DNA from: Mesorhizobium sp. NZP2077 | Lineage (GTDB): Bacteria; Pseudomonadota; Alphaproteobacteria; Rhizobiales; Rhizobiaceae | Direction: 5' to 3' | DNA: 64,000 bases | Assembly (NCBI RefSeq): GCF_013170805.1 | Contig: NZ_CP051294.1 | Coordinates: forward strand, 186,001-250,000 | Shown: piece by piece, positions 46,548 through 64,000 of the stretch | Position numbering within the stretch: position 1 is the first letter of the stretch | Layout of the letters: the number at the start of each line of letters is the position of its first letter | Program-made: the position numbers and the translations under genes | The notes under the pieces: generated by a model | Told to the model about the DNA's origin: nothing | The model's database searches: none | The model's input: the letters and a program-made list of their open reading frames with translations, nothing else

Positions 46548-46682
46548 GGTGGAGGCCTCCCGGATCGGACTGATACAGGGAGACTATTCGCCATCGGCAG
46601 ACAGAGAGGCTGTTTGGATGCCTACGTGAAGAGAGATTCTCCTTATTGCGCGCGCCGGCAAGAGAATATCACTCTGGTTCCG

Positions 46683-47435: not shown

Positions 47436-48563
47436 ATGACGAATTTCGCTGATGCTATGCACAGCAGAAGCCACGCTTCGGCCTTCGAGGAAGGTCAGCG
47501 AGTTGGCAACCAACTGGGCGTCGACCAGCGCGAACCAGTGGTATCCTGTTCCAACGTGTGGAAGATTTTCGGCACCCGTGCGCCGGAGGCTATGGAGGCT
47601 ATCTTGGATGAAGGCCTCGGTAAGGACGAGGTTCTCGCGCGCTTCGGGTGTGTCGTTGCGGTCAGAGACGTAAGTTTTTCGATCAAGAAGGGCGAAATCC
47701 TTGCGATCATGGGCCTCTCCGGAAGTGGCAAGTCAACGCTCGTCAGACATGTGAACCGTCTCATCGAAGCGACAACCGGGATAATTCGCCTCAATGGCGT
47801 TGACATTTCCAAGGTTACGAGTGCGGAGCTCCGCTCAATTCGCTCCAAGCAGGTCGGGATGGTCTTCCAGGATTTTGCCCTCCTGCCCCACCGGACAGTC
47901 AGGGACAACGTCGCCTTTGGCCTTGAACTGCAAGGCGTGTCAAAGCGTCAGCGCTGGGCAAACGCTCAGGCCGCAATCGAACAGATGGACCTCAAGGGGT
48001 GGGAAGACCGGGTTCCCTCCGAGCTCTCTGGCGGTATGCGCCAGCGCGTCGGAATTGCGCGAGCTCTGGCTGCCGATCCGTCAGTCTTGCTGATGGATGA
48101 GCCGTTTGGAGCACTTGATCCGCTGATCCGCCGGGATCTGCAGGACCAATTCCTGGCGCTCTCACGCGACCTCGGAAAAACCACTTTGTTCATCACGCAC
48201 GACCTGGAGGAAGCCTTCCATCTGGGTGACCGCATCGCGATCATGAAAGACGGCGCGATCGTCCAACTCGGAACGGCTGCAGACATCATTACCTCGCCGG
48301 CAGATGCCTATGTTGCAGACTTTGTCCGCGGCATCTCGCGCGTTCCCATCCTTACCGCGCGTCACGTGATGACTCCGGCAAATTCTACTGAGCCCCCCCA
48401 CGTTGCAAACGCACCCGTCGCCACACTTGAAACGCCTCTGGCGGAGTTGATCGCCACAGGCGCAAAAACCCGCTCCGACATTGCAATCGTGGATCAATCC
48501 GGACGTACCGTCGGAATGGTGACAATAGAGACGATGCTGTCCGCAATGAAGGAAGTCCGCTGA
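47436..48563 (+). CDS. Glycine betaine/proline-type ABC transporter ATPase (ProV-like)
   Basis: 375 residues. An N-terminal ProV-type extension (VWKIFGTRAPEAMEAILDEG) precedes the ABC domain: Walker A GLSGSGKSTLVRHVN, signature ELSGGMRQRVGIARAL, Walker B VLLMDEPFGALDP, switch His in FITHDLEEAF. The tail has one short CBS-like segment (ARHVMTPANS to GRTVGMVTIETMLSAMKE), a likely osmotic or nucleotide sensor in this family. First gene of a ProV-W-X operon. Confidence 0.93.
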   Translation: MTNFADAMHSRSHASAFEEGQRVGNQLGVDQREPVVSCSNVWKIFGTRAPEAMEAILDEGLGKDEVLARFGCVVAVRDVSFSIKKGEILAIMGLSGSGKSTLVRHVNRLIEATTGIIRLNGVDISKVTSAELRSIRSKQVGMVFQDFALLPHRTVRDNVAFGLELQGVSKRQRWANAQAAIEQMDLKGWEDRVPSELSGGMRQRVGIARALAADPSVLLMDEPFGALDPLIRRDLQDQFLALSRDLGKTTLFITHDLEEAFHLGDRIAIMKDGAIVQLGTAADIITSPADAYVADFVRGISRVPILTARHVMTPANSTEPPHVANAPVATLETPLAELIATGAKTRSDIAIVDQSGRTVGMVTIETMLSAMKEVR

Positions 48564-48564
48564 C

Positions 48565-50076
48565 ATGACAAGGTCATACAGGGAGCAGGACTGGTCGAGT
48601 TCAATCGCCGAATTCACGGGCGTCAACAGCAGCTACTACCAAGGTAAGTTTGCGGACCTCTTTGAGGGAAGCCGCGCCAGACTCAGACCCAATTGGGCAG
48701 CCGCCATAGTAGGTCCATTGTGGGCTGCTTCACGCGGCTTGTTCGGGGCGTTCCTGGTAGCAGGGCTGGTCGAGATTGCCTTGGTCATCGGCATTGTCTT
48801 CCTGAGCACCGGTGGCCTCAGCGTCGACAACATGTCGCGTGCTCAGTCACTTGAAAAACTTAGTGAGGCGCGCCTCACCCAGGCGAATGACGAGCGCCAG
48901 AAAGGGAATGAGGCGGCGGCGAACCAGATGCAGGAACTTTCGAAGTCGCTCGCTCAGTCAGCGGCGAACGAAAGAGCAGTTGCCAACGACAAGGCTCGGG
49001 CCGCAACGATGCTAATCGTCTCAACTATCGCAGGCCTGCTAGGTTTGCGGGCGATTTTTGCAGTGGCAGGAGATTGGCTCTATTCGCGCCAGTACATGCG
49101 CTGGCGGCGGGACCGAGCCACGCCATCAAGACGCAGCTATCAGCGTGTCGTGGCCTGTGGGCTCTTGTTAGTCATCATCTACGTCGTCGCGCTTTTCGGC
49201 GCCAAAGTACCACAACTTGCCAGTACGCTGGCCATCCAGACGAACACCTCAGAGCTGGCAGGTATTACAGCAACTGCCCTCGATCGATTTTTTACGTCGA
49301 TAACACAATCGGGCCGGTCGATCTTTGATGCGATTACAGGAAGCATCTCGGCACTAGTCGCCTCGGTGGAAAGCCTTCTCGAAGGACTTCCGTGGATTTG
49401 TACGATCCTGGTGGTTGTCTTTGCTGCATGGCTGCTTGCGGGCTCTGGAACCGCAGCGTTCACCGGGGCAGGATTGGTTTACCTGGCTCTTTTCGGTTTC
49501 TGGCAGAAGAGCATGGTTACGATCGCGCTTTTGGGAACGGCGGCTGTGTTGGCGCTCAGCATAGGCATTCCCTTGGGAATTATCTGCGGCAAGAGCCCAA
49601 GGGCGTACCGCATATTCCGGCCTATGCTCGATCTCATGCAGACGATGCCCGCGTTCATCTATCTGGTGCCCATCATCGCATTCTTTGGCATCGGTAAGAC
49701 GCCGGGGGTCTTGGCCACGATTATCTTCGGAATGCCGCCGGTAGCGCGCCTGACAGCTCTGGGTCTTCAGCAGGTACCGCTCAGCATCAGGGAGGCGGCC
49801 GTCGCGTTCGGTGCGACCCCTTGGCAGAGTCTGGTGAAAGTCGAGTTGCCGCTCGCCATGCCGTCGATCATGGCAGGGATCAACCAGACGATCTTGATGT
49901 GTTTATCGATGGTGGTGATTGCTTCGCTCATTGGCGCCGGCGGCCTGGGCGAGGATGTTTTGCAGGCACTGCAATTCGCGTCCGTCGGACAAGGTTTCTT
50001 GGTGGGGGCGGCAGTGCTGATCTGCGCCATCATCTTGGATAGGCTCATACAAGGGAAAAGGAGTAATAACCAATGA
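48565..50076 (+). CDS. ProW-like permease with extended N-terminal domain
   Basis: 503 residues, about 150-200 more than ordinary ProW. Residues about 270-500 are the permease with several membrane segments and the EAA loop LQQVPLSIREAAVAFGATPW. The added N-terminal part begins with a soluble stretch then RPNWAAAIVGPLWAASRGLF (recalling DUF2628), membrane helices, and a charged coiled-coil-like section (about 95-140, AQSLEKLSEARLTQANDERQ) placed between helices. Stop overlaps the ProX-like start (ATGA). ATG starts one base after the ProV-like stop. Confidence 0.9.
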   Translation: MTRSYREQDWSSSIAEFTGVNSSYYQGKFADLFEGSRARLRPNWAAAIVGPLWAASRGLFGAFLVAGLVEIALVIGIVFLSTGGLSVDNMSRAQSLEKLSEARLTQANDERQKGNEAAANQMQELSKSLAQSAANERAVANDKARAATMLIVSTIAGLLGLRAIFAVAGDWLYSRQYMRWRRDRATPSRRSYQRVVACGLLLVIIYVVALFGAKVPQLASTLAIQTNTSELAGITATALDRFFTSITQSGRSIFDAITGSISALVASVESLLEGLPWICTILVVVFAAWLLAGSGTAAFTGAGLVYLALFGFWQKSMVTIALLGTAAVLALSIGIPLGIICGKSPRAYRIFRPMLDLMQTMPAFIYLVPIIAFFGIGKTPGVLATIIFGMPPVARLTALGLQQVPLSIREAAVAFGATPWQSLVKVELPLAMPSIMAGINQTILMCLSMVVIASLIGAGGLGEDVLQALQFASVGQGFLVGAAVLICAIILDRLIQGKRSNNQ

Positions 50077-51038
50077 AGATCAAGCTTTCGATGCTCGCTC
50101 TTGCCGTCGCAATGGGGTTGGCCGCACCGGCAGCGGCCCAGGAGAAAATCAAGATCGGATCCTCCAATTGGCCATCGCTCCAGGCGATGTCCAGTGTCCT
50201 GAAGGAAATAACAGAAAAATACTTCGGTGCGTCTGCCGAGGTGGTCAACAGTACACTGCCTATCATTATGGCATCGATGGATAAAGGCGAGATCGATATT
50301 CTGCCAGAAATCTGGTCTCCGAACCACGACAGTCTGATCAACACCTACGTCAAGGAAAAGCAAACCGTCAAACTGGGCAGTTTGACTTTCCCTTCAATTT
50401 CCGGGATGTGCACCACGCGTCACACGCAGGAGAAATTCGGCGTGAAGTCGATCTATGATCTGTCGCGTCCCGAGATCGCAGACGTATTCAGGTCGGCTGC
50501 AGGCGGCAAGCCGAAACTTTGGGTCGGCCCTGCCGGCTGGAGCTCGTCAAAAACCGAGCTTATCCGTGCCCGAGACTACGGATATGCCGACCTCTTTGAA
50601 CTGACGACTGTCGAGGAAAGCCTTGCGATTGTGGACTTGGAACAGGCGATAAGAGCTGACACGCCATGGATAGGCATCTGCTACACCCCTCACCCGACCT
50701 TCTCCCGCAAGGAGGTCGTAATGCTCGACGAGCCGCCGCATGACCCGGCGAAGTGGAAGATTGTACAGCCCGACCAGAACCCGAACTGGCTTGCGATGTC
50801 ATCGTCGACGACCGCCTGGGCTCCGATCTCGGTCAACATCGCCTATGCCAAGGAGCTGGAAGCAAAGGATCCGAAGCTTGTCGCACTCCTCAACAACATC
50901 ACGCTTGATCCGGCTGAAATCGCCCAGTGGATCGATGCGGTTGGCACCAAGAAAATCGATCCCGACACCTTCGCGAAGGACTGGGTCTCGAAGAACGACG
51001 CAAAAATTCTCGGCTGGATGGCAGGCAAAGCCCAATAG
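50073..51038 (+). CDS. Betaine-type substrate-binding protein (ProX/OpuAC-like)
   Basis: 321 residues with a Sec signal peptide (residues 1-22, ending APAAAQ). Mature protein begins EKIKIGSSNWPSLQAMSSVL. Tryptophans in SNWPS, PEIWSPNHD and GPAGWSSS could form the aromatic cage that holds a quaternary ammonium group, as known for ProX/OpuAC. GGAG lies 10 bases before the ATG. Glycine betaine is the default ligand, but related ligands are possible given the downstream genes. Confidence 0.9.
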   Translation: MKIKLSMLALAVAMGLAAPAAAQEKIKIGSSNWPSLQAMSSVLKEITEKYFGASAEVVNSTLPIIMASMDKGEIDILPEIWSPNHDSLINTYVKEKQTVKLGSLTFPSISGMCTTRHTQEKFGVKSIYDLSRPEIADVFRSAAGGKPKLWVGPAGWSSSKTELIRARDYGYADLFELTTVEESLAIVDLEQAIRADTPWIGICYTPHPTFSRKEVVMLDEPPHDPAKWKIVQPDQNPNWLAMSSSTTAWAPISVNIAYAKELEAKDPKLVALLNNITLDPAEIAQWIDAVGTKKIDPDTFAKDWVSKNDAKILGWMAGKAQ

Positions 51039-51067
51039 GCACTAGAGTCAGAAAGTTGAGAAGTCAC

Positions 51068-52249
51068 ATGTCATATGTAATCCCATTCGACGCGGAAGAG
51101 TACGATGCGCGCCTTCGAAAGATCAAGGAGAGGATGGAAGGTGCTGGAATAGACCTTCTGCTTTGTACCGACCCGGCGAACATTAATTACCTAACGGGTC
51201 TTGATGCGCTCTCGTTCTATGTGCCCCAGGTCCTCCTGGTGCACAAAGACGAAGCTGAACCGTTCTGGTTCGGTCGCATGATGGACACATCGTCCCTCAA
51301 GGTTACCACCCGACTGCCCGAGAAGAATTTGTTGCCGTACCCAGAAACTATGCTGCATCAGCAGCACGTCCATCCCTTCCAGTTGCTAAGCGAGCACATC
51401 CAAACTCGCGGGTGGGCCAGCCAAACGATCGGGGTCGAAATGGACGTCGACTACTACACTGCCCGATGCCATCAGACTCTCGTGGTGGGGTTGCCCAACG
51501 CCAAGATCGTCGACAACCGTCGTCTCGTAAACTGGGTTCGGCTGGCTAAATCGCCAGCGGAACTCCGTTACATGCGAGAGGCCGGGAAAATCACCACCGT
51601 CGCCATGCAGGAGGCTATCGACAACTTGCTGGCCGGAAAAAGGAGCTATGAGGTAGCAGCTGACATCCTCCATACATCGGTCATGGGCACCGATGGGCTC
51701 TACGGGGACTCTCCTGCGGCATTTCCATTTGTGATGGTTGGTGAGAATGCCCACGCCTGCCATCTGTACTGGACCGACCGGGACATGCCCGAGAACGAAA
51801 TGGTTGTTCTAGAACTGGCGGGCGTCCGCAAGCGGTATCACAGCCCGCTTGCTCGAACGATCCTTCTTGGTAAAGTGACCGACGAGCCGCGCCGACTTGC
51901 CGATATCATCATCGAAGGTGTCGATCGGGCACTTGAGGCTGCGAAACCGGGTGTGACGTGCGGCGAGGTCGAGAATATCTGGCAGGATGTCCTGCGAAGG
52001 AATAATCTTACAAAAGACAGCCGCGTTGGCTATCCTGTTGGCATTGCCTACCCGCCGGACTGGGGTGAGAAGACAGCCAACATCCAGAATGGTGATAAGA
52101 CTGTCCTGGAAGCGGGAATGTGCTTCCACTTCCAGTCAGGCCTTTGGCTAGATAAGCAGGGTATTGCGCTCTCGGAGACGTTCGCAGTCACCGAAAACGG
52201 AGGTGAACGCCTAGCCCAGGTCCCACATCGCCTATTTTATCAACATTGA
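51068..52249 (+). CDS. M24 family hydrolase, ectoine hydrolase-like (EutD/DoeA type)
   Basis: 393 residues, ATG at 51068, 29 bp after the ProX-like gene. N-terminal domain FDAEEYDARLRKIKERMEGA then LLLCTDPANINYLTGLDALS; C-terminal pita-bread domain. It strongly recalls ectoine hydrolase: GWASQTIGVEMDVDYYTARC, VKSP-type LAKSPAELRYMREAGKI, LELAGVRKRYHSPLARTILL, DSRVGYPVGIAYPPDWGEKT and ETFAVTENGGERLAQVPHRL. The metal ligands of true M24 aminopeptidases are replaced (Asp by Glu in LELAG, SD by SP in YHSP, His lost in GYPVG), as expected of the metal-free ectoine group. It may open a ring or remove an acyl group from a compatible solute. Confidence 0.8.
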   Translation: MSYVIPFDAEEYDARLRKIKERMEGAGIDLLLCTDPANINYLTGLDALSFYVPQVLLVHKDEAEPFWFGRMMDTSSLKVTTRLPEKNLLPYPETMLHQQHVHPFQLLSEHIQTRGWASQTIGVEMDVDYYTARCHQTLVVGLPNAKIVDNRRLVNWVRLAKSPAELRYMREAGKITTVAMQEAIDNLLAGKRSYEVAADILHTSVMGTDGLYGDSPAAFPFVMVGENAHACHLYWTDRDMPENEMVVLELAGVRKRYHSPLARTILLGKVTDEPRRLADIIIEGVDRALEAAKPGVTCGEVENIWQDVLRRNNLTKDSRVGYPVGIAYPPDWGEKTANIQNGDKTVLEAGMCFHFQSGLWLDKQGIALSETFAVTENGGERLAQVPHRLFYQH

Positions 52250-52260
52250 AAATGACGGCC

Positions 52261-52293
52261 GCCGCACCGTCGTGCGCTTTACAATGGTGCGGC
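52261..52293 (+). terminator. Hairpin after the M24 gene
   Basis: GCCGCACC (52261-52268) and GGTGCGGC (52286-52293), perfect 8-bp stem, 17-base loop, 12 bp past the M24 stop. No T-run follows. Confidence 0.4.
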
Positions 52294-52495
52294 CCCCACT
52301 CCAGACGTGAGATTTGCATGGTTTCCAAACCCCCGCCGAAACGTCTAGGTGTGGAAATCAACAGTGGGCATCAGACAGCCTTCTGGCTCAGACGACCAAT
52401 GCGTTGGTCTGCTTTTATCTGGAGGTGTTGGCAGACAGTACAGGCTCCGGTTAAAACTTGCGGGGATCGCTGTTCAGTTTCGTCGGAGGCAACCT

Positions 52496-52966
52496 GTGAG
52501 CACTGAAGACATCGACGACTACGACAGGAAGATCCTCGAGATCATCCAGGTCGACGCCGAACTCCCGGCCTCGACGATCGCCGAAGTGGTGAACCTGTCG
52601 GCATCGGCGGTCCAGCGCCGAATCAAACGTCTGAAAGACTTAGGGGTTATCGTCGCTACCGTCGCTGTGGTTGACGGCAAAAAGGTCGGCCGCCCGCTGG
52701 TATTCCTAGCCGCCGTAGAGGTTGAGCGAGAGCGCAAGGACCTTCTTAACCAGCTTAAGAAATGGTTGCTGGGCGAGAGCTATGTACAGCAGGCGTTCTA
52801 CACAACAGGTGCATCCGACCTCACCGTGATCATTACAGCGAAAGATGTTGAGGAATATGATCACATTACCCAGATGATGGTGGAGATGAACCCGAACATA
52901 AAGCGGATTAATACGAGCGTCTGTCTGCAGATTTACAAACGTGGAAGCATTATCCCAACTGACTGA
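52496..52966 (+). CDS. Lrp/AsnC family transcriptional regulator
   Basis: 156 residues from the GTG at 52496, which has a GGAGG six bases before it; an upstream open frame to 52349 has no homology. HTH in DYDRKILEIIQVDAELPAST then IAEVVNLSASAVQRRIKRLK; RAM domain with QQAFYTTGASDLTVIITAKD. Ectoine-degradation clusters often carry an AsnC-type regulator (DoeX), so it probably controls the surrounding catabolic genes. Confidence 0.92.
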   Translation: MSTEDIDDYDRKILEIIQVDAELPASTIAEVVNLSASAVQRRIKRLKDLGVIVATVAVVDGKKVGRPLVFLAAVEVERERKDLLNQLKKWLLGESYVQQAFYTTGASDLTVIITAKDVEEYDHITQMMVEMNPNIKRINTSVCLQIYKRGSIIPTD

Positions 52967-53604: not shown

Positions 53605-56079
53605 ATGACACATTCCCCATTCGTGCGCCCCCGCGCTTTGGCAGCCCGTCATCACGAGATAGTCATTCTGGGAGGCGGCATAGCGGGCACCAGCGTTGCG
53701 TATCATCTTGCGAAGTTGGGCAAGAAGGATGTCGCGATCTTGGAGCGGAACACTCTCACTTCCGGCACGACTTGGCATGCGGCCGGCTTGATCATGCAGA
53801 CACGTGGCACACATTCGTTGACCGAAATCGCAAAATACAATGCCGAGCTTTACGATGCCCTTGAGGCCGAAACAGGCCAGGCCACCGGTTTCAAACGCAA
53901 CGGCACGCTCGGCGTTGCACGGACGAAGGATCGTCTCCACGAAACCGCCCGCAACGCGTCGGTCGCTAAGAGCTTTGGACTTGAAGCCCATATGATCTCC
54001 CCGGCGGAGGCGAAGGCGCTTTATCCTGCAATCGACGCTTCGATCATCGAGGGCGCAGTGTTCATCCCCCGGGATGGGCAGACAAACCCCATCGACACCT
54101 GCATGGCATTGGCAGCAGGTGCAAAGCAGAATGGGGTCCGAATTTTCGAAAACCAAGAGGTAAAAGACCTTTGGCGGACGCCGAAAGGTCTCTACCAGCT
54201 CCAGACCGACCATGGGGTCATAGAGGCGGAAACGCTGGTACTAGCCTGCGGGCTCTGGACACGTGATTTAGCAGCGCGGTTAGGTGCGCGCGTCCCATTG
54301 TACGCCGCCGAGCATTTCTACGTGGTCACGGAACCGATGGATTTCATCCGTCCTACGCTCCCGGTCCTGCGGGACACTGATGGTCACGTATACTTAAAGG
54401 AGGATGCGGGAAAGCTCCTTATCGGCGCCTTCGAGCCTTGGGGAAAGCCCCTCGCGATGGAGAGCCTGCCCAAGGAGACGGCTTTCATCGAACTTTTGGA
54501 AGATTGGGACCATTTCGAACTGCCTATGACCAAGGCTATTGAAATAGTTCCCGGACTTGCCGATGCGGGAATAGCTAAGTTCTTCAATGGCCCGGAAAGC
54601 TTTACTCCGGACCTGCTATTCATGATCGGCGAGGTCCCGGGACTGAACAACCTTTTTGTGTCTGCTGGTTACAACTCCGAAGGCATCGAGTATGGGGCGG
54701 GCGCCGGCCGCGCCTTAGCTGAATGGATCGTTGCCAAGTCCCCGCAGATGGACATCAGCTTCGTGGATGTGGCCCGCTTCCATCCCTTCCAGATCAACAA
54801 GCGTTACCTGCACGATCGCACGGCAGAAGTACTCGGCTTGCACTACAAGATGCACTGGCCGAGCCATCAACCAGAAACTTCGCGCGGGGTTCGCAAAAGT
54901 GCTCTCCATGATCGCTGGGCGAAACTTGGCGCGAGCTTTGGCGAGGGCATGGGCTGGGAGCGTCCAATGTGGTTCGCCGGAGAGGACCAGCCAACAAATA
55001 ACGTTTACTCGTACGACGAACCAAACTGGTTCAGACATACTGCCGAGGAGTGCCGCGCTGCGCGTGCTGACGCGGTGTTGTTCGACCAAAGTTCCTTCGG
55101 CAAGCACCTCATCCAGGGAAGGGACGCGTGCCGGTTCCTCCAATGGCTGTGCGCGGGTAATGTCGACGTCCCCGTCGGCAAACTCGTCTATACGCATATG
55201 CTCAACAAGAACGGTGGTATCGAGACCGACATTACCGTCAACCGGCTTTCGGAAACTGAATACCTCATCATATCCTCGGCCACTGTGCATCCGCGCGACA
55301 CAGCTTGGATCCGCAAACATATCGACGCGGAGTGGAACGTTACGCTGACGGATGTGACTTCAGCCTATGCGGTGCTATCCCTGCAGGGCCCAAAATCCCG
55401 TGACATCCTCTCGAAGGTCACCGACGCCGATCTCTCCAACGAATCGTTCCCTTTTGCCACCAGCCAAGTAATCGATGTCGGCTATGCGCGGGTCATCGCC
55501 AACCGCCTGACATATATCGGAGAGCTTGGCTGGGAACTGCATGTTCCTACGGAAATGGCTCAGCACGTTTTCGATATCTTATGGGAAGCCGGGGATGGGA
55601 ATGGTCTGCGTCCAGCCGGCTACCATGCCCTGGAGCATCTTCGCTCAGAACGCGCTTACCGCGAGTATGAGCTTGACCTCACGCCAGTCGACACCCTGCT
55701 CGAAGCCGGACTCGGATTCACAATTGACTGGTCGAAGCCGTGCGGCTTCCAGGGCAAGGACGTCTTGGATGCACAGAAGGCGGCCCGCACACCTCGCAAG
55801 CGGCTGCTTTCATTTAAGCTGATGGATCCCAGCCCCGTGCTCTTCCGCGAAGAGCTTATCCGACGCAACGGCGATATCGTCGGTTACGTTTCGTCCGGCG
55901 TAAAGAGTTTCACGCTCGGGTCTTCGATAGGACTTGGCTATGTCAAACACGCTGACGGTGTAAGCCGAGAATGGATCGACGCGGGAAACTGGCAGATCGA
56001 AATCGCTGGCAAGCTGTATGACGCGGACGCTTCGCTCCAGGCCTTTTTCGACCCTAAGGGCCTTAGAGCGAAAGTCTGA
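53605..56079 (+). CDS. FAD-dependent dimethylglycine/sarcosine dehydrogenase-type enzyme
   Basis: 824 residues, two-domain DMGDH layout. N-terminal DAO domain with FAD fingerprint GGGIAGTSVAYHL (from residue 23) and the SGTTWHAAGL motif whose His58 is the usual covalent FAD site. C-terminal folate-binding GcvT-type part from about 440 (FDQSSFGKHLIQGRDACRFL, HMLNKNGGIETDITVNRLSE, YIGELGWELHVPTEMA). It would demethylate an N-methylated amine such as dimethylglycine or sarcosine, passing the methyl to tetrahydrofolate. Fits the betaine-type transporter upstream. Start ATG follows TTCC only; no clear Shine-Dalgarno. Confidence 0.9.
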   Translation: MTHSPFVRPRALAARHHEIVILGGGIAGTSVAYHLAKLGKKDVAILERNTLTSGTTWHAAGLIMQTRGTHSLTEIAKYNAELYDALEAETGQATGFKRNGTLGVARTKDRLHETARNASVAKSFGLEAHMISPAEAKALYPAIDASIIEGAVFIPRDGQTNPIDTCMALAAGAKQNGVRIFENQEVKDLWRTPKGLYQLQTDHGVIEAETLVLACGLWTRDLAARLGARVPLYAAEHFYVVTEPMDFIRPTLPVLRDTDGHVYLKEDAGKLLIGAFEPWGKPLAMESLPKETAFIELLEDWDHFELPMTKAIEIVPGLADAGIAKFFNGPESFTPDLLFMIGEVPGLNNLFVSAGYNSEGIEYGAGAGRALAEWIVAKSPQMDISFVDVARFHPFQINKRYLHDRTAEVLGLHYKMHWPSHQPETSRGVRKSALHDRWAKLGASFGEGMGWERPMWFAGEDQPTNNVYSYDEPNWFRHTAEECRAARADAVLFDQSSFGKHLIQGRDACRFLQWLCAGNVDVPVGKLVYTHMLNKNGGIETDITVNRLSETEYLIISSATVHPRDTAWIRKHIDAEWNVTLTDVTSAYAVLSLQGPKSRDILSKVTDADLSNESFPFATSQVIDVGYARVIANRLTYIGELGWELHVPTEMAQHVFDILWEAGDGNGLRPAGYHALEHLRSERAYREYELDLTPVDTLLEAGLGFTIDWSKPCGFQGKDVLDAQKAARTPRKRLLSFKLMDPSPVLFREELIRRNGDIVGYVSSGVKSFTLGSSIGLGYVKHADGVSREWIDAGNWQIEIAGKLYDADASLQAFFDPKGLRAKV

Positions 56080-56330
56080 ACAGGCATTCACGCTCCTTCC
56101 ATTACGCCATTACGTGATTTTCGCGCAGTTCTAAATTTAAGCAGGATTGCCGCGTGAAAAGCATAAATTTGGGGTCTTGCGGCACTCTGTAGCATTTATT
56201 GTCGGGCATGCAGCGCTCGCTCCCGCAGCAGCTAGATATAAATCTGCGCTCGGTTTGGCTTGCCAATATTTGAATATCCAATCTGAACTAAAGACATTCG
56301 TCAATCTGGTCGCATCAGAAAGGCTAACCC

Positions 56331-57358
56331 ATGAAAGTCGCATGTCTGTGGCACGCAACCCAGGATGAACTCAACTTTATCAGGAGCTCATTGCCCGCCG
56401 ACACCGTAGTGACTGCTCCGCAAGGCCAATACGATTCGAGATTTGAAAGTTCATTCGTTGAACTGGATCCAATCACTCACGATGCTGATGCCCTCTTGGC
56501 GTGGGCGATTCCAAGAGGAGTCGTAGAGAACGCCAAAAAGCTCAAATTTTTGAGCTGGATGCACAGCGGAGTAGATGACTTGGGACAATTAGGGATCTTG
56601 GGCCTTGCCATAAAAAATCACTTCCGCATTGCGAATATACGTGGAGCCAATTCGATCGCGGTAGCCGAACAAGCGATGATGTTTGTGCTTTGCCTCGCCA
56701 AGAAGACTTTGCGCAATCACAAGAGGGGGCTTCGGACGGGACACAACAATTTCCGCTTTGGGATCCGACTGATCGTTCCGGTATGCTCAGCGGACGTCGC
56801 CTTGCAGTTGTAGGCGTCGGTGAGATCGGAGCGAGCGTCGCCAAGCGGGCGAAGGCCTTCGATATGGAGGTTATTGGCGTGCGCCGACACAAAGAGCGCC
56901 CTGTTGAGTACGTGGACCACATGTATGGACCGGCCGATTTGACCGCAATCCTGCCTGATTGCGACTATGTTGTTTTGGCAACGCCGCAAACGGAAGAAAC
57001 ACAGGAACTGTTCGGCGCAGAAGAGATTTCTGCAATGAAGAAAGGGGCATACCTGATCAACGTGGGCCGAGGCGGTCTCATCAAAGAAAGACCGCTTTAC
57101 GACGCGCTCGTTTCGGAACATCTGGGTGGCTTCGCCACAGATGTCTGGTGGAAGTATGAGTACGGCGCCGCCTTCCCGAATGGGTGGGGCTCTCGGCTTA
57201 ATATACAAAAGCTTCCAAACGTTGTCCTATCTTGGCATGAAGCTCACAATGCAGACGACGTTCTTGAAAGGAACCTGGAGCTTGGTACACAAAATTTACG
57301 CCAGTTTCTTGCTGGGCAACCTGTCTGCCGCGAAATCAATCTTGAACTTGGATATTGA
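56331..57358 (+). pseudogene. D-2-hydroxyacid dehydrogenase, frameshifted
   Basis: Frame one (56331-56813) gives the N-terminal half: MKVACLWHATQDELNFIRSS, FLSWMHSGVDDLGQ, SIAVAEQAMMFVLCLAKKTL. The NAD-binding half continues one frame over to 57358: LAVVGVGEIGASVAKRAKAF, VLATPQTEETQEL, INVGRGGLIKERPLYDAL and WHEAHNADD (catalytic His). The switch falls at a run of five G (56728-56736 area, AAGAGGGGGCTTCGG); six G would restore one frame of about 340 codons. It is either a true recent frameshift or a sequencing error. The enzyme reduces 2-keto acids or oxidises D-2-hydroxy acids. Confidence 0.8.
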
Positions 57359-57462
57359 GCTCGAACGCAGCTGTCGCGCTATTGACGGCCGGCCTGTGAG
57401 CCAAGTCTGGGCGGCTATACAATAGAGCGGATGGGTTAACGTGGAGCGGCCAGATCGATAGA

Positions 57463-58644
57463 TCATTTGCGGAGCAACAACTGACAGTATCGAATAGCCA
57501 GTTCAGTTGTCGGTATGAGCAAATCGTCGGAAGCTCCGAAGGTTGGCGTGTGAAGACCCGTTTCATAACCGGGTTCCTGACTGCCGAACCAAAAGTATAT
57601 GGATGGAACGCAGCTGGAATAGTAGCCGAAATCGTCGCTTCCTGAGAGAGCTGGTGGCTCAACGAATTTGGACTCCCCAACCGTTTCAAGAACAAGATCT
57701 CGGAACAGCGCGACCATCCCGACGTCGTTGATAACGGGCGGATCGCCAAGATGGGAGGTAAACACCGCCTCACCTCGATGTGTTGCCGCAATGCCCTCGG
57801 CGACCTCGCGAACGCGACGCACGAGATGGGCACGCCGCACCAGGCTAGTGGTGCGTATCGTTCCTGTCAGCAGAACAGACGAACAGATAATATTGCGAGC
57901 CTCGCCTCCGTGAACGGTCCCGACGGTAACAATGACCCCGTCATCGCCGGGAAACTCGCGCGATGCCACTTTTTGAACCTCGTTGATGAACGCGGCCGCT
58001 ATGGCGATGGCATCCACTCCCTCATGAGGCATGGCCCCATGAGCCATCAACCCCTTGAAAGTGACGTCAAACTGGTCAGCTGATTTGGTGGCCGCACCTG
58101 GCCGTGCGCCGTAGACTCCCGAGGGAATGCTTGGCATGATGTGCATTCCGACGGCCGCATCGAAACCATCGAGGAGCTTTTCCTTCAATACCGACAGGCC
58201 ACCTACCGGTTCCATTTCTTCTGCAGGTTGGAAGAAAACTCGCACTCTACCGGAAAAATCTGCCCGCATCCGATGGAGAGCAAGCGCTGCTCCCAATGCG
58301 ATCGAAGTATGCATGTCATGCCCACAGGCATGCATTCTACCAGGGAGCACTGACTGGTAGGACAAATCATCACGTTGCTCCTGGATTGGCAGCGCATCAA
58401 TGTCCCCACGCAATGCCACAGAACGGCAAGGACCCTCAGCCAATCCTTCAATGTCGACATAGAGGCCGGTTTTATGAAATGCCTTGGACCCCGTTAGACC
58501 AAACGCCTCTAGGGCGTCGCGAAGTCTCGCTTGGGTCTTCCACTCATTGTTTGAGAGCTCGGGCTCCTGGTGCATCGCGTGACGCATTTCGATCACCGCG
58601 TGGCGCTCTTCGGATGAGAGCAGGTTGTTGGTCAAAGCAGACAT
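57463..58644 (-). CDS. M20 family amidohydrolase
   Basis: 393 residues. LRGDIDALPIQEQRDDLSYQ, GRMHACGHDMHTSIALGAAL (metal ligands), FQPAEEMEPVGGLSV (catalytic Glu), AVGMHIMPSIPSGVYG and SGSDDFGYYSS plus ETGLHTPTFGASDD near the end. Only distantly like the M20 protein at 13950-15137. Divergent from the EutB-like gene across a 265-bp regulatory gap. In this context it may deacylate an N-acyl amino acid, for instance N-acetyl-diaminobutyrate-like compounds. Confidence 0.9.
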   Translation of the reverse strand: MSALTNNLLSSEERHAVIEMRHAMHQEPELSNNEWKTQARLRDALEAFGLTGSKAFHKTGLYVDIEGLAEGPCRSVALRGDIDALPIQEQRDDLSYQSVLPGRMHACGHDMHTSIALGAALALHRMRADFSGRVRVFFQPAEEMEPVGGLSVLKEKLLDGFDAAVGMHIMPSIPSGVYGARPGAATKSADQFDVTFKGLMAHGAMPHEGVDAIAIAAAFINEVQKVASREFPGDDGVIVTVGTVHGGEARNIICSSVLLTGTIRTTSLVRRAHLVRRVREVAEGIAATHRGEAVFTSHLGDPPVINDVGMVALFRDLVLETVGESKFVEPPALSGSDDFGYYSSCVPSIYFWFGSQEPGYETGLHTPTFGASDDLLIPTTELAIRYCQLLLRK

Positions 58645-58909
58645 TACATTGGCCTCTGCGCGTAAGCAGCATCATTCCAGTCCCTATGTTTAGACAAATG
58701 GCAACCTGTAAGGCCGCATGATCGTCGATCTTTACGCGCGATTTCGGCGTCAAACGCTGCCTTGTCAGTGAAATCCATCGCTGCAGGGTGATATGATTCC
58801 TATCGGTCGTATAGGCCAGTCGAGACTGTCCAACTCGCACGCAAGTACACCAACTCACCACCAGTCGCGCCGCCAACAGGGCCTTTGCAACGTAAGGAGT
58901 ATCATACCC

Positions 58910-59896
58910 TTGATACAACTGCCCGACATAAACGAGGCGCGCCGGCGCATCAGCGATGTGATTGTGAACACACCCCTGGTTCGCTCCACAGGGCTTTCCC
59001 GCGAGTCAGGGGTCGAAGTCTTCCTAAAAATGGAGCACCGACAGAAGACAGGAAGCTTCAAGCTCCGCGGCGCGACGAACGCCATCAGCCAACTCACCGA
59101 AGCTGAAAAGATACGCGGCGTCGTGACGGCTTCGACGGGAAATCATGGTCGCGCAGTGTCGTATGCTGCCACTGCTGCGAAGGTGCGTGCTACGATATGC
59201 GTTTCAAACCTCGTTCATGAAAACAAGATCGCAGAGATTCGAAGGCTGGGCGCAGATCTGCGTATCATAGGCAACTCCTATGACGAGGCCGAACAAGAGG
59301 CTGAGCGTCTCGCAGAACACGATCGCATGGTGATGATTCATGCATCAGACGACCCAAGGATTATTGCGGGTCAAGGCACAATCGGTCTCGAGCTTCTCGA
59401 AGCATTGCCTAATGTCGCGACGGTTCTCGTGGCCGTCGGAAGCGGAGGGCTTTCCGCTGGCGTCGGGCTTGCAATCTCGAGCTTACGTCCAAGTGCCCGG
59501 ATACTTGGTGTATCAATGGATCGTGGCGCCGCCATGAAGGCAAGCCTTGAGGCAGGCCATCCGGTTGAGGTTGAGGAATTGCCAAGTTTGGCAGACGCAC
59601 TCTGCGGCGGAATTGGCTTGCAAAACAAACTAACCTTTAAGGCATGCCAGAGCCTGCTTGATGACGTTATCCTTGTCAGTGAGGAAGAGATCGCCGCAGG
59701 CATCCGATATGCCTACGATCATGAGCATGAAGTAGTCGAGGGTGCGGGAGCCGTAGGCATTTCTGCACTTCTTGCCGGCAAGGTCACCGCTCTAAAGGGG
59801 CCTATCGCGATCATCATCTCGGGCGGCAATATCAATATGGCCCTTCATCGCCGCGTCATGGCCGGCGATCACACCATTTTCCAGCAGGTCGGCTAA
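58910..59896 (+). CDS. eutB: Threonine dehydratase-like PLP enzyme (EutB-like)
   Basis: 328 residues from the TTG at 58910, which follows AAGGAG by ten bases; the frame is open to 58793 but without homology. PLP lysine about residue 51 in KTGSFKLRGATNAI, phosphate loop GSGGLSAGVG, and TASTGNHGRAVSYAA. This fold-type II enzyme family includes EutB, which acts on hydroxyectoine-derived compounds in Sinorhizobium. The pairing with a cyclodeaminase-like gene whose ATG overlaps its stop (TAATG) is the main reason for the EutB call; a plain serine/threonine dehydratase is the alternative. Confidence 0.75.
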   Translation: MIQLPDINEARRRISDVIVNTPLVRSTGLSRESGVEVFLKMEHRQKTGSFKLRGATNAISQLTEAEKIRGVVTASTGNHGRAVSYAATAAKVRATICVSNLVHENKIAEIRRLGADLRIIGNSYDEAEQEAERLAEHDRMVMIHASDDPRIIAGQGTIGLELLEALPNVATVLVAVGSGGLSAGVGLAISSLRPSARILGVSMDRGAAMKASLEAGHPVEVEELPSLADALCGGIGLQNKLTFKACQSLLDDVILVSEEEIAAGIRYAYDHEHEVVEGAGAVGISALLAGKVTALKGPIAIIISGGNINMALHRRVMAGDHTIFQQVG

Positions 59897-60888
59897 TGCA
59901 AGAAGTCACCATTCTAACAGAGCAAGTCTTGAGAGGCCTCGTGCCATTGGACCAAAACGCTGTGCAATGCATCGAAGATGCCTTTCACGCGCTTGCCACT
60001 AAGCGGGTGGTGATGCCGCCAATCTTACGACTAGACATACCTGAACATCATGGCGAGGTGGACGTCAAAACGGCTTATGTGAGCGGTCTTGAAAGCTTCG
60101 CAGTGAAGATCGGACCCGGCTTTTTTGATAACCCTCGTATCGGACTGCCCAGCACAAGCGGGCTTATGGTGGTGCTTTCCAGCACGACCGGCCTGGTGCA
60201 GGCGGTGTTGCTTGACAATGGATACCTGACGGATATCCGCACCGCCGCAGCTGGAGCCGTGGCCGCAAAGCACCTCGCTCGCGACGATGCCTCCATTGCT
60301 GCAATCATTGGAGCCGGCGTCCAGGCGAAACTTCAGTTGCAGGCGCTCGCTCTCGTTCGGCCTATCCGAGAAGCCCGACTGTGGGCACGCAATATCACAA
60401 AGGCAGTAAGCGTTGCAGCAGAGCTTTCAAGTCGCCTAGGTTTCCCTGTTACTGCATATGCCGACCCTCGTGTCGCAATTGCCGGATCCGACGTCATCGT
60501 GACAACGACCCCGTCGACCCAGCCAATCCTGCTTGCCGAGTGGCTCGAACCCGGGCAGCATCTCACTGCCATGGGATCCGATGCAGAACATAAGAATGAA
60601 ATTGCGCCTGGTGCAATCGCACGCGCCGATGTGTACGTGGCAGACAGCTTGGCACAAACTCGGAAGTTGGGCGAACTCCGTTGCGCGCTTGCAGATAATG
60701 TTATCCCAGAAGGTCAACGCCACGTGGAACTTGGGCAACTCATAGCGCGGTCAGAGGTTGGAAGGATTACAAAAGCTCAGATTACGGTCGCGGATCTGAC
60801 CGGCACGGGGATTCAAGATACCGCAATTGCAACGCTCGCCTTTCACCGAGCGAAAGCTGTAGGTGCGGGTATGACCCTGTGGAACTGA
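59896..60888 (+). CDS. eutC: Ornithine cyclodeaminase family enzyme (EutC-like)
   Basis: 330 residues. Rossmann segment AAIIGAGVQAKLQLQALALV (about 132-151), ESFAVKIGPGFFDNP, and GYLTDIRTAAAGAVAAKHLA match the ornithine cyclodeaminase/mu-crystallin family, which includes imine reductases and alanine dehydrogenases as well as EutC. TAATG overlap with eutB shows tight co-translation. In the eut pathway EutB and EutC are thought to turn 5-hydroxyectoine toward ectoine. Confidence 0.78.
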   Translation: MQEVTILTEQVLRGLVPLDQNAVQCIEDAFHALATKRVVMPPILRLDIPEHHGEVDVKTAYVSGLESFAVKIGPGFFDNPRIGLPSTSGLMVVLSSTTGLVQAVLLDNGYLTDIRTAAAGAVAAKHLARDDASIAAIIGAGVQAKLQLQALALVRPIREARLWARNITKAVSVAAELSSRLGFPVTAYADPRVAIAGSDVIVTTTPSTQPILLAEWLEPGQHLTAMGSDAEHKNEIAPGAIARADVYVADSLAQTRKLGELRCALADNVIPEGQRHVELGQLIARSEVGRITKAQITVADLTGTGIQDTAIATLAFHRAKAVGAGMTLWN

Positions 60889-61084
60889 CCCTTTCCAGTC
60901 AGCATGAGTAGTAAACGCGAGCCTTTCTACGCGCCTCGTAGCGGCATGTGGCATCCAGTTTGGCGGCATTCGTGGTGGCGATCTCGGGTCGCTCCACATG
61001 CTCGGAGAGCGCTTGCGCAGGTCGATCCACGGTCTCGCAAGGAGGTGCTTCAGGATGCCGATGCAGAGATACTTCGTTTCATGG

Positions 61085-61600
61085 TTAGTGTTCGAACCCG
61101 TGGCGCGAACCCTCCTGCCCGATGCCGGGCTGCTTCATTCTGAAGGGTGCCGCTCCCGATGACATGCGTCCCGTGTTGATGCCCATGCCATGTTCCAAGG
61201 TCTCGGCCATCCGCCAGACACGAACCAGGTCCGCGGCAAGAAGTAGGCGGCCAGGCCGTAGACATTTGCCTCGTTCACAGCCTGACCCGCAGGGTCGAAG
61301 CGAAGGGATGTGGCCAGCGGCCCCCCTCTTGCGCAATCGGTTTTCGCCAGAGATTTGACTGAGGACCGGCGGTCGGAAAAGCGTGCCGTCCTTACCATTG
61401 TGCTTGCCCCCGTGGCCAATTTTGTCGCCGTTTGCGACCGCATCGGGGATATGAAATTCGATCTTGGCCAGAGCGTGACTATCGATTATCGGGCCGATTG
61501 CCGACCCTGAATCGAATCCGTCACCAACCCGAAATCGGCGATCCCGCTCGACAAACTCACCATGAACTCCCGATTGGACGTAAAGGCATTCGCGGTGGCA
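61085..61600 (-). pseudogene. Aldehyde dehydrogenase remnant
   Basis: On the minus strand, in three frames: VQSGVHGEFVERDRRFRVGD then GFDSGSAIGPIIDSHALAK, then GKHNGKDGTLFRPPVLSQIS, then NVYGLAAYFLPRTW, VRVWRMAETLEHGMGINTG and GIGQEGSRHGFEH. This is the C-terminal half of an aldehyde dehydrogenase related to the intact one at 45054-46547. The catalytic Cys part is absent. Confidence 0.75.
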
Positions 61601-61697
61601 GGGCCGGCACTACGGCTCTCGCTTCGATCGCACCACGAATCCATCGTTTGTATCTTTTCGCCTCAAGAGCAACCACAACAAGGGCTAAGGCTGTCCT

Positions 61698-62684
61698 CTA
61701 GCTGTTTGAAATTGGTTCGCGAAGAGTGCCGGGCGTGACACCAAAATTCTCTCGAAAAGCTCTTGTGAAATGAGATGCGTTTTCAAACCCAACCTCAATA
61801 GCAATATCCAGCAGTGGCGCGTGAGTAGCGATAATGAGTTGCCTTGCCCTTTCGAGCCGCAGCCGTTTGTAGACCACCGCTGGCGAACTTTTGATCGTTT
61901 TTGTGAACAAGCGCTCCAGCTGTCTCCGAGACAAACCGACCTCGGCCGCAAGTTCGGAAATCGAAAGCGTCCTGTCAATATTGCCATCCATCGCAATTAA
62001 AGCCGCCTGGACTCGTGGATCGCTGCTTCCAATAGACTCCGGTCTTCGCGGCTGTACATGAATTGCCGGACGTGCTTTGTCGATCTGGAGAACCTCCAAG
62101 GCGTTCCGTTCAGCCCTGTGACTAATGTGCCGCCTGACTATCGAAAAGGCCATGTCGGCAGCGCTGCTGCCACCAGCACAGGATCCTCTGGTACGGTCGA
62201 GATTGAATATGCGATCCGATCGGACTTGGTGATCCGGAAAACGCTGACGGAATTCTCTGAAGTGCAGCCAACTCACACAAGTCCGGTGGTGCCTCATCAG
62301 CCCTGCGTCAGCCAAAATGAATGTGCCCGTGCAGACACCAATTAGGGGGACCTTCTTGCTCGCAGCTTGCTTGAGATAATTAACTGTCGCGCTATCGACT
62401 GGGGAATCGTGCCTTAATAGACCTCCGATCACGACAATATAGTCGAAATTGCCGGGGTCCGTGAAATCCGACGTCGGGGTTACGCGGATACCGCAGCTTG
62501 AATCGATCGTATTCCGACAACTCGCCAAGACCTGCCAATCTGCAAAAACTCGACCCGATTTGTCGCCGTCGTCGCTAGCCAAACGTAAAGTGTCAACGAA
62601 CAAAGCAAACGCCGTGAGCGTGAACGAGCGTGCGAGTATGAAGCCCACTCTTAGTCGTGCGGTCTTTGTAATTTCTCCCAACAC
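61698..62684 (-). CDS. GlxA-type AraC family regulator
   Basis: 328 residues from the GTG at 62684, with GAGGAGG nine bases upstream. N-terminal DJ-1/PfpI-like domain (about 10-180, with VVIGGLLRHDS and GVCTGTFILADAGLMRHHR) and a C-terminal AraC double helix-turn-helix (SISELAAEVGLSRRQLERLF, LLDIAIEVGFENASHFTRAF). This layout is typical of GlxA/GbdR/CdhR-like regulators of betaine, carnitine and arginine use. Divergent from the EhuB-like gene, so probably its activator. Confidence 0.9.
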   Translation of the reverse strand: MLGEITKTARLRVGFILARSFTLTAFALFVDTLRLASDDGDKSGRVFADWQVLASCRNTIDSSCGIRVTPTSDFTDPGNFDYIVVIGGLLRHDSPVDSATVNYLKQAASKKVPLIGVCTGTFILADAGLMRHHRTCVSWLHFREFRQRFPDHQVRSDRIFNLDRTRGSCAGGSSAADMAFSIVRRHISHRAERNALEVLQIDKARPAIHVQPRRPESIGSSDPRVQAALIAMDGNIDRTLSISELAAEVGLSRRQLERLFTKTIKSSPAVVYKRLRLERARQLIIATHAPLLDIAIEVGFENASHFTRAFRENFGVTPGTLREPISNS

Positions 62685-62924
62685 CTGGTTTAGCCTCCTC
62701 TAGATATGATTGTGTTTGGCTGCGAGCCTGCGCAATGAAGAAGGGTAAGCTTGCCTCCGCTCAACCTCCTACGGGCCTGAGAAGAGAAAAAAGCAAGTAG
62801 CACCTTTTGTGCGCGCTTCTTAATCGCATCGAAGGCCGAAAACGCGGGATCGCCGCTCTTCAGCGCGTTAGACTGATTGTGCTTGACGGGTTATCCGATC
62901 AAGATTCAACCACGAGGCACTCAC

Positions 62925-63788
62925 ATGACAGCAGCAGGGAAGTTGGGAGTAAAGCATTTCGCACTCGCAGTCGTTCTGACAGCAATCACGCTTGGTGCTA
63001 CGGGACTAGCTGTTGCCGATGATCTGCTTACGCGCACGCGCGCCGGCGCCCCTCTTAGAATTGGCTTTTCAAATGAACGACCTTGGGCATTTCCCGATGA
63101 AAGCGGTAAAGCCGCAGGCCTGATGAATGTCGTCGCAATCAACACTCTCAAGGCAATGGGGATCACGAATATCGAGCCGGTTGTTGTAGAGTGGAATTCC
63201 TTAATTCCCGGCTTGCAGGCAGGGCGATATGACATGATCACCGGAGGGATGTACGTCCTGAAGACCCGCTGCGATAGCATCGTCTTCTCGGATCCAGTCA
63301 TAAGGATGGGGGATGTCTTTGGGGTCCCCAAGGGTAACCCAAAGAAGATCGAAACATTCGAAGACATCAAGAATCAAAATTCCGTCTTGGTCACCACCGC
63401 AGGTAACAACACGGTCGAAGTTGCCAAAAAGGTCGGGATTACAGACGACAAAATAATGCAAGTTCCCGGCCCCACAGAAATGCTAGCCGCAGTGCTAAGT
63501 AACCGGGCGGACGCGGCTGGAACAAATTATTTCAGCATAAAGGCTCTCGTCGACCAGAGTGATGGAAAGCTCGAAATCACAGATCTTAACAAAATGCCGG
63601 AGTGGACCTTGAATTGGGCTGCAATGGGCTTTCGCGAAGAGGACAAAAGTTTCATCGAGGAGTACAATAAATTTCAAAAGAAATATATAGGATCTGCCGA
63701 AATGATGAGCTCGGTCGCTGAATACGGTTACACAAAGGACAACCTGCCGGGTAATGTAGCGACGGATTGGTTGTGCAAGAACCGGTGA
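62925..63788 (+). CDS. Ectoine-type amino-acid ABC transporter binding protein (EhuB-like)
   Basis: 287 residues from the ATG at 62925 (GAGG eight bases upstream). Signal peptide about residues 1-32 ending AVAD. The mature protein is a family 3 solute receptor: LRIGFSNERPWAFPDESGKA, VVEWNSLIPGLQAGRYDMIT then GGMYVLKTRCDSIVFSDPVI, as in EhuB. No permease or ATPase gene follows; instead a DoeB-like gene starts 30 bp later, which is unusual. Confidence 0.85.
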   Translation: MTAAGKLGVKHFALAVVLTAITLGATGLAVADDLLTRTRAGAPLRIGFSNERPWAFPDESGKAAGLMNVVAINTLKAMGITNIEPVVVEWNSLIPGLQAGRYDMITGGMYVLKTRCDSIVFSDPVIRMGDVFGVPKGNPKKIETFEDIKNQNSVLVTTAGNNTVEVAKKVGITDDKIMQVPGPTEMLAAVLSNRADAAGTNYFSIKALVDQSDGKLEITDLNKMPEWTLNWAAMGFREEDKSFIEEYNKFQKKYIGSAEMMSSVAEYGYTKDNLPGNVATDWLCKNR

Positions 63789-63818
63789 AATAATGACTCT
63801 GTTGTAGGTCTACCGACG

Positions 63819-64000
63819 ATGGCGAAGAATCCAATTACGTCAACCGTTGATTTCCAGAGGGATGGAGTTCAGCATGGGTTCCTGAATTTGCCTTACTCGT
63901 GTGACCAGTCAGCCTGGGGATCGATTAGAATCCCAGTGACTGTAGCCAAAAATGGAGAGGGCCCGACGGTCCTCTTCACGGGTGCGAACCATGGGGACGA
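63819..64000 (+). CDS. doeB: DoeB/EutE-like N-acetyl-diaminobutyrate deacetylase (partial)
   Basis: Only the first 60 codons lie inside the window. MAKNPITSTVDFQRDGVQHG then FLNLPYSCDQSAWGSIRIPV and TVLFTGANHGDE match the start of DoeB (EutE), the succinylglutamate desuccinylase/aspartoacylase-type deacetylase that acts after ectoine hydrolase. The HGDE motif holds the first zinc ligands. Follows the EhuB-like gene by 30 bp. Confidence 0.82.
   Translation, partial: MAKNPITSTVDFQRDGVQHGFLNLPYSCDQSAWGSIRIPVTVAKNGEGPTVLFTGANHGD

Follow-up and report, generated by a model that had tools for sequence, protein, structure and literature searches.

An island of ectoine-type catabolic genes lies on pMSNZP2077NSa, a 364.8 kb plasmid, typed conjugative, in the two-contig genome of Mesorhizobium sp. 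NZP2077. The window, which is the whole stretch of 64,000 nucleotides analysed here, covers bases 186001-250000 of this plasmid and ends within the island. Judged from its protein families, the island is a nearly complete second ectoine/hydroxyectoine gene set, and it is paralogous because an ordinary ectoine cluster is also present on the chromosome. The explanation towards which we lean is a modular second pathway for ectoine and 5-hydroxyectoine with an added N-demethylation branch, the substrate of which we infer from the sequences. With it, the strain can probably feed on more kinds of ectoine-type solute, an N-methylated one among them. The cluster is genuine and unusual, yet it is more complete and closer to the ectoine pathway than an initial annotation of the window had held.

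Gene content of the plasmid island

Family membership was judged by the curated cut-offs of NCBIfam. The products of eutB (58793-59896; 464.9 bits, cut-off 413) and eutC (59896-60888; 523.4 bits, cut-off 471.65), which overlap by one base on the plus strand, fall within the ectoine families. An ehuB-like binding protein gene (62877-63788, plus strand) narrowly misses its cut-off (184.5 bits, cut-off 190.9) and heads the tight run ehuB-eutE-eutA-eutD2-lta-ehuC-ehuD-ehuA, with spacings of 30, 35, 37, 16, 49, 0, and 0 bp, in which lta is a threonine aldolase gene and eutD2 a divergent relative of eutD. This run is cut by the window end. It continues past base 64000 to ehuA and an aldehyde dehydrogenase gene and is followed about 1 kb further on by a second EutA-like gene, which ends at the equivalent of ~73442. 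The plasmid EutE (513.9 bits, cut-off 402.7), EhuA (399.7 bits, cut-off 345.4), and EhuD (273.3 bits, cut-off 205.2) all pass. EutA scores below its cut-off (234.7 versus 318 bits); its sole NCBIfam match at E <= 1e-60 is nonetheless EutA.

In what follows, L-numbers denote loci and G-numbers the genomes compared, G000 being the window strain. A near-identical island occurs in Mesorhizobium loti DSM 2626 (L011; proteins 95-100% identical), and the remainder of such an island copy is visible in genome G048 (L069, L070), where EhuC passes with 238.9 bits (cut-off 196.95).

The trio asnC-ssd-atf, which the initial annotation had omitted from its description of the gene set, is located directly upstream on the minus strand (43638-47213). 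The atf gene (43638-45041) encodes a class III aminotransferase (PRK07482, 866.7 bits, cut-off 687) that is predicted by family to convert diaminobutyrate to aspartate semialdehyde, and it is 82-83% identical to the atf beside ssd-asnC in the Sinorhizobium ectoine clusters L071, L119, and L121. The succinate-semialdehyde-dehydrogenase-type gene ssd (45054-46547) and the Lrp/AsnC regulator gene asnC (46683-47213) resemble those of the chromosomal ectoine cluster (88% identity over the 235 residues compared and 94% over 160 residues; L066). The initial annotation had also reported a DoeB-like gene and had stated that the ectoine genes do not form the known operon. The former is a real EutE/DoeB, although just ~60 codons of it are in the window (63819-64000, plus strand; gene end equivalent to 64808). 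The latter is in part an effect of the window edge, with EutE, EutA, a second EutD-like M24 enzyme, threonine aldolase, EhuC, EhuD, and EhuA following directly.

On the chromosome of NZP2077, the ordinary cluster is eutE-eutD-eutC-eutB-eutA-ehuD-ehuC-ehuB-ehuA-mocR with asnC and ssd (L066); the EutD encoded there reaches 818 bits (cut-off 613). Among 119 Mesorhizobium genomes, ordinary EutD (E <= 1e-170) occurs in 108 and the divergent M24 type (E <= 1e-110) in 35.

That EutB, EutC, EutE, EhuA, EhuD, and the G048 EhuC all exceed curated cut-offs would also be expected if the island degraded ectoine and hydroxyectoine only. The demethylase, hydroxyacid dehydrogenase, and M20 genes would then be passengers or serve ordinary ectoine turnover products. 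The sections of PMC5924519 that we consulted agree with this: gene content varies among ectoine clusters, those of S. meliloti and R. pomeroyi being recorded; some clusters hold a hydroxyacid dehydrogenase of unassigned role; ProU imports ectoine; and DoeA yields N-acetyl-diaminobutyrate in two isomeric forms, only one of which seems to be a substrate of DoeB. The M20 enzyme could thus have an ordinary role on the other (gamma) isomer. However, both plasmid M24 enzymes, EutA, and (narrowly) EhuB fall below cut-offs, whereas the chromosomal EutD passes, and one substrate needs no two EutD-like enzymes in a single island. We regard plain redundancy as a rather unlikely account of the island.

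A divergent clade of EutD-like hydrolases

The window copy of the M24 hydrolase (M24w; 51068-52249, plus strand) scores 391.6 bits and the second plasmid M24 enzyme 423.7 bits, both clearly below the EutD cut-off of 613. At this score, the term "ectoine hydrolase-like" in the initial annotation was apt, and M24w is at most a putative ectoine hydrolase. We constructed a quick M24 tree of 73 rows, in which the M24w row is long-branched; from 101 M24 rows, 72 were kept and 29 omitted as near duplicates or too distant, and Halomonas DoeA was added. Both plasmid enzymes fall in a clade of 35 rows, labelled EutD2 here, together with the Shinella/Sinorhizobium type "M24a", one Mesorhizobium type, and proteins from metagenome-assembled genomes (MAGs). 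This clade has a Shimodaira-Hasegawa-like approximate likelihood ratio test (SH-aLRT) value of 100, and so does a separate clade of 10 rows that unites DoeA and ordinary EutD. The tree leaves the branching order of these two clades inside their shared larger group without resolution. As to the placement that the initial annotation had named as a test, EutB and EutC lie inside the ectoine families by cut-off, and the M24 enzymes lie outside the DoeA/EutD clade yet in the same larger group.

The alignment shows 14 positions that separate EutD2 from the DoeA/EutD clade, and the DoeA motif residues compared, which we take to be catalytic, are mostly retained. M24w is additionally altered within the same motifs, at DGW (DAL), PHLTW (CHLYW), and DWGER (DWGEK). 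Because the motifs are mostly kept yet the clade-specific positions differ, EutD2 enzymes plausibly use DoeA-like chemistry on a related substrate. In one case (L083), an ordinary eut operon ends with an EutD2 gene. The MAG loci L018 and L020 have the order M20-ehuBCDA-PhyH-EutD2-M24b, in which M24b is another M24 type and a PhyH-type dioxygenase gene adjoins the ectoine-type transporter.

Linkage of EutD2 to N-demethylase genes

An enzyme that fuses a flavin adenine dinucleotide (FAD)-dependent DAO domain to a GcvT domain is encoded at 53605-56079 on the plus strand, near M24w. The N-terminal DAO and C-terminal GcvT regions match over the full length, and relatives with 66-90% identity carry PF01266 and PF01571. 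It scores 414 bits against human dimethylglycine dehydrogenase and 330 bits against dimethylglycine oxidase, and some close relatives bear the source name 4-methylaminobutanoate oxidase. By family, we predict an N-demethylase-type enzyme of the dimethylglycine/sarcosine dehydrogenase kind.

When gene positions were compared across the 119 Mesorhizobium genomes, a demethylase-type gene lay within 10 kb of 33 of the 43 EutD2 copies and of only 7 of the 112 ordinary EutD copies. This count takes the window FAD-GcvT type at E <= 1e-245 (26 copies) and SoxB at E <= 1e-195 (33 copies). The linked copies are related and do not represent 33 events; four of them are the window cluster and its G048 copy. 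Scoring took in 8 to 16 candidates per genome for the Mesorhizobium surveys and four for a draw at order level, so that an undercount is possible. The corresponding count over tree rows within 8 kb (18/35 EutD2 versus 4/9 canonical) is not evidence, since those loci were chosen partly by adjacency.

Three kinds of demethylase occur near EutD2. The window FAD-GcvT subfamily is located beside EutD2 for 10 of its 13 close copies (at least 79% identity) in Mesorhizobium, and outside the genus one locus (L080) has atf-EutD2 divergent from a gene of this subfamily (71%). A second FAD-GcvT subfamily, 44-48% identical to that of the window, is found near EutD2 in L056, L058 (as two pieces), and L094; these genes are below the E cut-off and outside the 33. 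The third kind is the distantly related heterotetrameric SoxBDAG, of which SoxA and SoxB pass NCBIfam cut-offs. The arrangement EutD2-M24b-SoxBDAG recurs in ten Mesorhizobium loci (L060, L062, L063, L084, L085, L086, L088, L089, L090, L091), in Shinella (L053), and in four rhizobial plasmid loci (L071, L119, L120, L121). In three Sinorhizobium species (L071, L119, L121), M24a-M24b-SoxBDAG-eutB-eutC-eutD-eutE forms a single gene run, and the opposite strand, facing away, carries ehuBCDA-gntR-asnC-ssd-atf. This linkage in rhizobia lends support to the suggestion of a related, possibly N-methylated solute.

Several observations weigh against the modular pathway with its demethylation branch. Eleven metagenome-assembled EutD2 loci found by M24 similarity (L012-L022) contain neither an FAD-GcvT fusion nor SoxB in the stretches read (0/11), some of which are short; a DAO oxidoreductase gene of single-domain type is present in L013 and L021, and a GcvT gene in L022. 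At order level, 12 of 397 genomes are EutD2-positive, six of them outside Mesorhizobium, and a demethylase gene was found at just one of these six loci (L080; none in L078, L079, L081, L082, or L083). Since L078, L079, and L081 seem to repeat the contigs of L014, L021, and L015, respectively, these two sets hold 14 distinct loci from outside the genus, one of them linked. No M24 gene accompanies the window FAD-GcvT subfamily in what was read of L075, L076, L077, L115, L116, and L117. The neighbours in L116 and L117 are unrelated, except for a Rieske oxygenase gene in the former and a PALP-family gene in the latter; the contig of L115 is only 4.1 kb long. Five ordinary eut clusters (L107-L111) have a 47-48% identical FAD-GcvT relative downstream. 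The MocR/GabR-type regulator EnuR of ordinary clusters was also not seen in the plasmid cluster (L054), where no match of at least 60 bits to the MocR-type regulator of a Shinella ectoine cluster was found. The hydroxyacid dehydrogenase gene (56331-57358) and ehuC (L009:5949-6614) are interrupted in the NZP2077 record, and a gap of 638 bp separates the FAD-GcvT gene from the preceding Lrp gene, so that it may be transcribed apart from M24w.

SoxBDAG itself tracks M24b more closely than EutD2, which likewise tells against this branch, because nine of the 12 SoxB copies (of 33) that are not near EutD2 have M24b, as do all ten EutD2-SoxBDAG loci read in Mesorhizobium. Of the remaining three, two are near another M24 gene and one has none (L098, a 10.6 kb contig). 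Taken together, the link between EutD2 and demethylase genes is strong in the sampled rhizobia and weak elsewhere. In wider samples at class and phylum level, with two candidates scored per genome and an undercount possible, the window FAD-GcvT subfamily turned up in three of 384 other genomes and in one (a Mesorhizobium) of 397 others.

The constancy of the M24b-SoxBDAG unit with an Ehu-type transporter could instead point to a guanidino or creatine-type pathway, in which a creatinase-fold M24 enzyme would free sarcosine and a sarcosine dehydrogenase or oxidase would convert it to glycine. In Mesorhizobium, 32 of the 33 SoxB copies are near some M24 gene (21 by position, and 11 of the remaining 12 on reading). 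A creatinase identity was rejected for both hydrolases, as M24w and M24b are nearer to DoeA (305.4 and 131.7 bits) than to the creatinase 1chm (54.6 and 77.1 bits), and the arginines at the presumed substrate-binding positions of creatinase seem not to be kept in the M24b alignment. No search for creatininase was made for this reading, which we consider improbable. SoxBDAG-M24 loci (L095, L096, L097, L100, L102, L103, L104, L105, and L106) often include an Ehu-type transporter and gntR, so that the genes are arranged as around a creatinase although the enzyme itself is not creatinase-like. On the NZP2077 chromosome, two M24 genes that match equally well are located 9 kb apart (L005 and L006, G000 C1:6931369-6932496 and 6940270-6941397; also L068, L106). 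One of them adjoins SoxBDAG and SoxA fragments are present in between, which suggests a tandem duplication.

Operon structure and the betaine-type genes

The transporter genes upstream of M24w are of the ProVWX type (47436-51038). The betaine/choline-type ATP-binding cassette (ABC) transporter ATPase gene proV (47436-48563; TIGR01186, 340.7 bits, cut-off 326.6), the permease gene proW (48565-50076; family match), and proX (50073-51038), which encodes a divergent glycine-betaine-type binding protein whose best solved relative scores just 39 bits, form a tight plus-strand run with M24w, the spacings being 1, -4, and 29 bp. An Lrp/AsnC-type regulator gene (52349-52966; 52496-52966 in the record; family match) follows on the same strand. 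On the minus strand, an AraC-type regulator gene (61698-62684), annotated as GlxA family, is GbdR-like (213.6 bits, cut-off 480). The placement of these genes and of the M24, FAD-GcvT, M20, EutB, EutC, and EhuB-like genes was confirmed.

These features could mean that the region combines independent neighbouring operons: a spare ehu-eut-asnC-ssd-atf cluster and a betaine/dimethylglycine unit (proVWX, FAD-GcvT, and the GbdR-like gene) that share a plasmid region and nothing else. The closest match of the AraC regulator is GbdR, which belongs to choline metabolism, the block is divided by strand changes as well as by the 638 bp gap, and L075, L076, and L077, as far as they were read, have the FAD-GcvT enzyme apart from M24 genes. 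A Rieske oxygenase acting with an FAD-GcvT-type enzyme is an arrangement known from betaine demethylation, and the pairing in L116 recalls it. On the other hand, proVWX and M24w are spaced like one operon, and the demethylase adjoins EutD-like M24 genes in most close Mesorhizobium copies and in L080. We judge independence of the two units to be possible and unlikely. Promoter matches in the window are close to chance (10 versus 8.0 expected) and terminator matches somewhat above it (23 versus 16.6), and neither was used.

Threonine aldolase and other added enzymes

The threonine aldolase encoded in the ehu run belongs to the low-specificity L-threonine aldolase family (343 bits to its best solved relative) and shares 47% identity with a chromosomal aldolase. 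Among the 119 Mesorhizobium genomes, copies with 99-100% identity were seen in G000 and G048 only. The plasmid order eutA-eutD2-lta recurs in a Thioglobus MAG (L022; 65, 76, and 66% identity) within the run 2-hydroxyacid dehydrogenase-eutA-eutD2-lta-gcvT-gcvP. The position of lta directly ahead of these glycine-cleavage genes fits glycine as the aldolase product. It is possible that hydroxyectoine could be channelled through this enzyme. The published proposal, in the parts of PMC5924519 considered, is that EutABC removes the hydroxyl group of hydroxyectoine. A literature search on hydroxyectoine with EutB/EutC returned no threonine aldolase among the matches listed, and PMC10373932, a match for hydroxyectoine, threonine aldolase, and glycine degradation, was unrelated in the portion seen.

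The D-2-hydroxyacid dehydrogenase that the initial annotation had named is present (56331-57358, plus strand) but is split over two frames; the G048 copy is a single open frame of 341 aa (L069:5616-6641). Its L022 counterpart is weakly similar (27% over 118 residues). The length differences of this gene and of ehuC from the G048 copy are in G runs, so they may reflect errors in sequencing just as well as gene decay. The M20 amidohydrolase (57463-58644, minus strand) is a DoeB2 relative that fails the cut-off (NF038260, 206.9 bits, cut-off 550) and is 64% identical to the M20 enzyme of the S. fredii NGR234 cluster.

A proposed pathway

In the modular pathway that we favour, EhuBCDA and ProVWX would import ectoine-like zwitterions, and EutD2-type M24 enzymes would act like DoeA in hydrolysing a cyclic amidine or a related amide. 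The products would be deacylated by EutE and the M20 enzyme, Atf and Ssd would convert diaminobutyrate to aspartate, and the FAD-GcvT enzyme would demethylate an N-methyl amino acid freed by one of the M24 enzymes. EutABC would handle the hydroxylated form; alternatively, threonine aldolase and aldehyde dehydrogenase might convert 3-hydroxydiaminobutyrate to glycine and aminoacetaldehyde.

More tentatively, the island may belong to an undescribed rhizobial route by which a cyclic amidine of the ectoine type that carries an N-methyl group is broken down. EutD2 would open the ring, a deacylase would strip the acyl group and FAD-GcvT or SoxBDAG the methyl group, and the ectoine enzymes would finish the breakdown; alongside, threonine aldolase would split 3-hydroxydiaminobutyrate in place of EutABC. 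We hold this specific version to be doubtful at present. A literature search for N-methylectoine and its variants found nothing. PMC13188858 presents a tree of 575 EutD proteins and reports that Bacillaceae clusters have an additional eutD homologue; demethylases are not discussed in the parts of it examined, where sarcosine is named in the reference list only.

The initial annotation had proposed a related solute rather than plain ectoine. This suggestion draws strength from the ordinary chromosomal cluster, the placement of both M24 enzymes outside the DoeA clade, and the linkage count, and it is weakened by the presence of most of the plain ectoine/hydroxyectoine machinery beyond the window and by the documented variety of ectoine clusters (PMC5924519, in the sections consulted). 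Ectoine has so far been treated as a single nutrient with one main route. If EutD2 is genetically tied to N-demethylases, then rhizobia at least would meet and eat a methylated ectoine relative that nobody has sought. Such a tie would explain why sarcosine oxidase genes have M24 neighbours with the annotation peptidase or ectoine hydrolase. An EutD-like gene that misses the curated cut-off should not be taken without further ado as a sign of ectoine consumption.

Surroundings of the island

Transposase genes and a run of tyrosine recombinase genes are located at 15268-23768 and 31998-34431 of the window, and transposase-like and recombinase-like open reading frames, judged by eye, are located past the cluster (L009, L010). 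These genes suggest that the island is or was mobile. A 1066-aa sialidase-family protein is encoded at 24760-27960, directly beyond a recombinase and IS66 block. A CapA-family protein and an OppF-D-C-B-A peptide-type ABC transporter are encoded on the minus strand at 35136-42121. On S. fredii pNGR234a, the same set adjoins an ectoine-type cluster, with identities of 65% (OppA), 75% (OppB), 81% (OppC), 79% (OppD), 82% (OppF), and 58% (CapA) to the NGR234 genes.

Comparison with known systems

The island shares the families of EutB, EutC, EutE, EhuA, EhuC, EhuD, AsnC, Ssd, and Atf with the ehuABCD-eutABCDE and asnC-ssd-atf genes of S. meliloti and R. pomeroyi, and, as in S. meliloti, asnC-ssd-atf is on the strand opposite the catabolic genes. 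Unlike those clusters, the island has EutD-like enzymes from another clade, in two copies, places eutE-eutA-eutD2-lta within the ehu run, has no EnuR that we could see, and adds proVWX, an N-demethylase-type gene, an M20 gene, and threonine aldolase. Compared with the structurally characterised DoeA/EutD (6twj, 6twk), its M24 enzymes are of the same family, keep most motif residues, and are 44-45% identical to an ordinary rhizobial EutD, but they differ at the 14 clade-specific positions.

The S. fredii pNGR234a cluster (L074) is similar in having EutB, EutC, M20, two M24 genes, an Ehu transporter, Opp-CapA, an aminotransferase, and an aldehyde dehydrogenase. Its M24 enzymes, however, are of other subfamilies (33 and 43% identity to M24w), and no EutE, FAD-GcvT enzyme, or threonine aldolase is annotated within the 25 kb read. 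A literature search for its gene name y4tL found nothing. The window FAD-GcvT enzyme has the DAO and GcvT architecture of the dimethylglycine/sarcosine dehydrogenase family, which includes 4-methylaminobutanoate oxidase. In Mesorhizobium, its subfamily mostly adjoins EutD-like hydrolases. The creatinase-sarcosine oxidase pathway consists of an M24-fold hydrolase, a sarcosine-oxidising enzyme, and a transporter, and the island resembles it in combining an M24-fold hydrolase with a sarcosine-oxidising-type enzyme and a transporter. It differs in that the hydrolases of the island and M24b are DoeA-like rather than creatinase-like.

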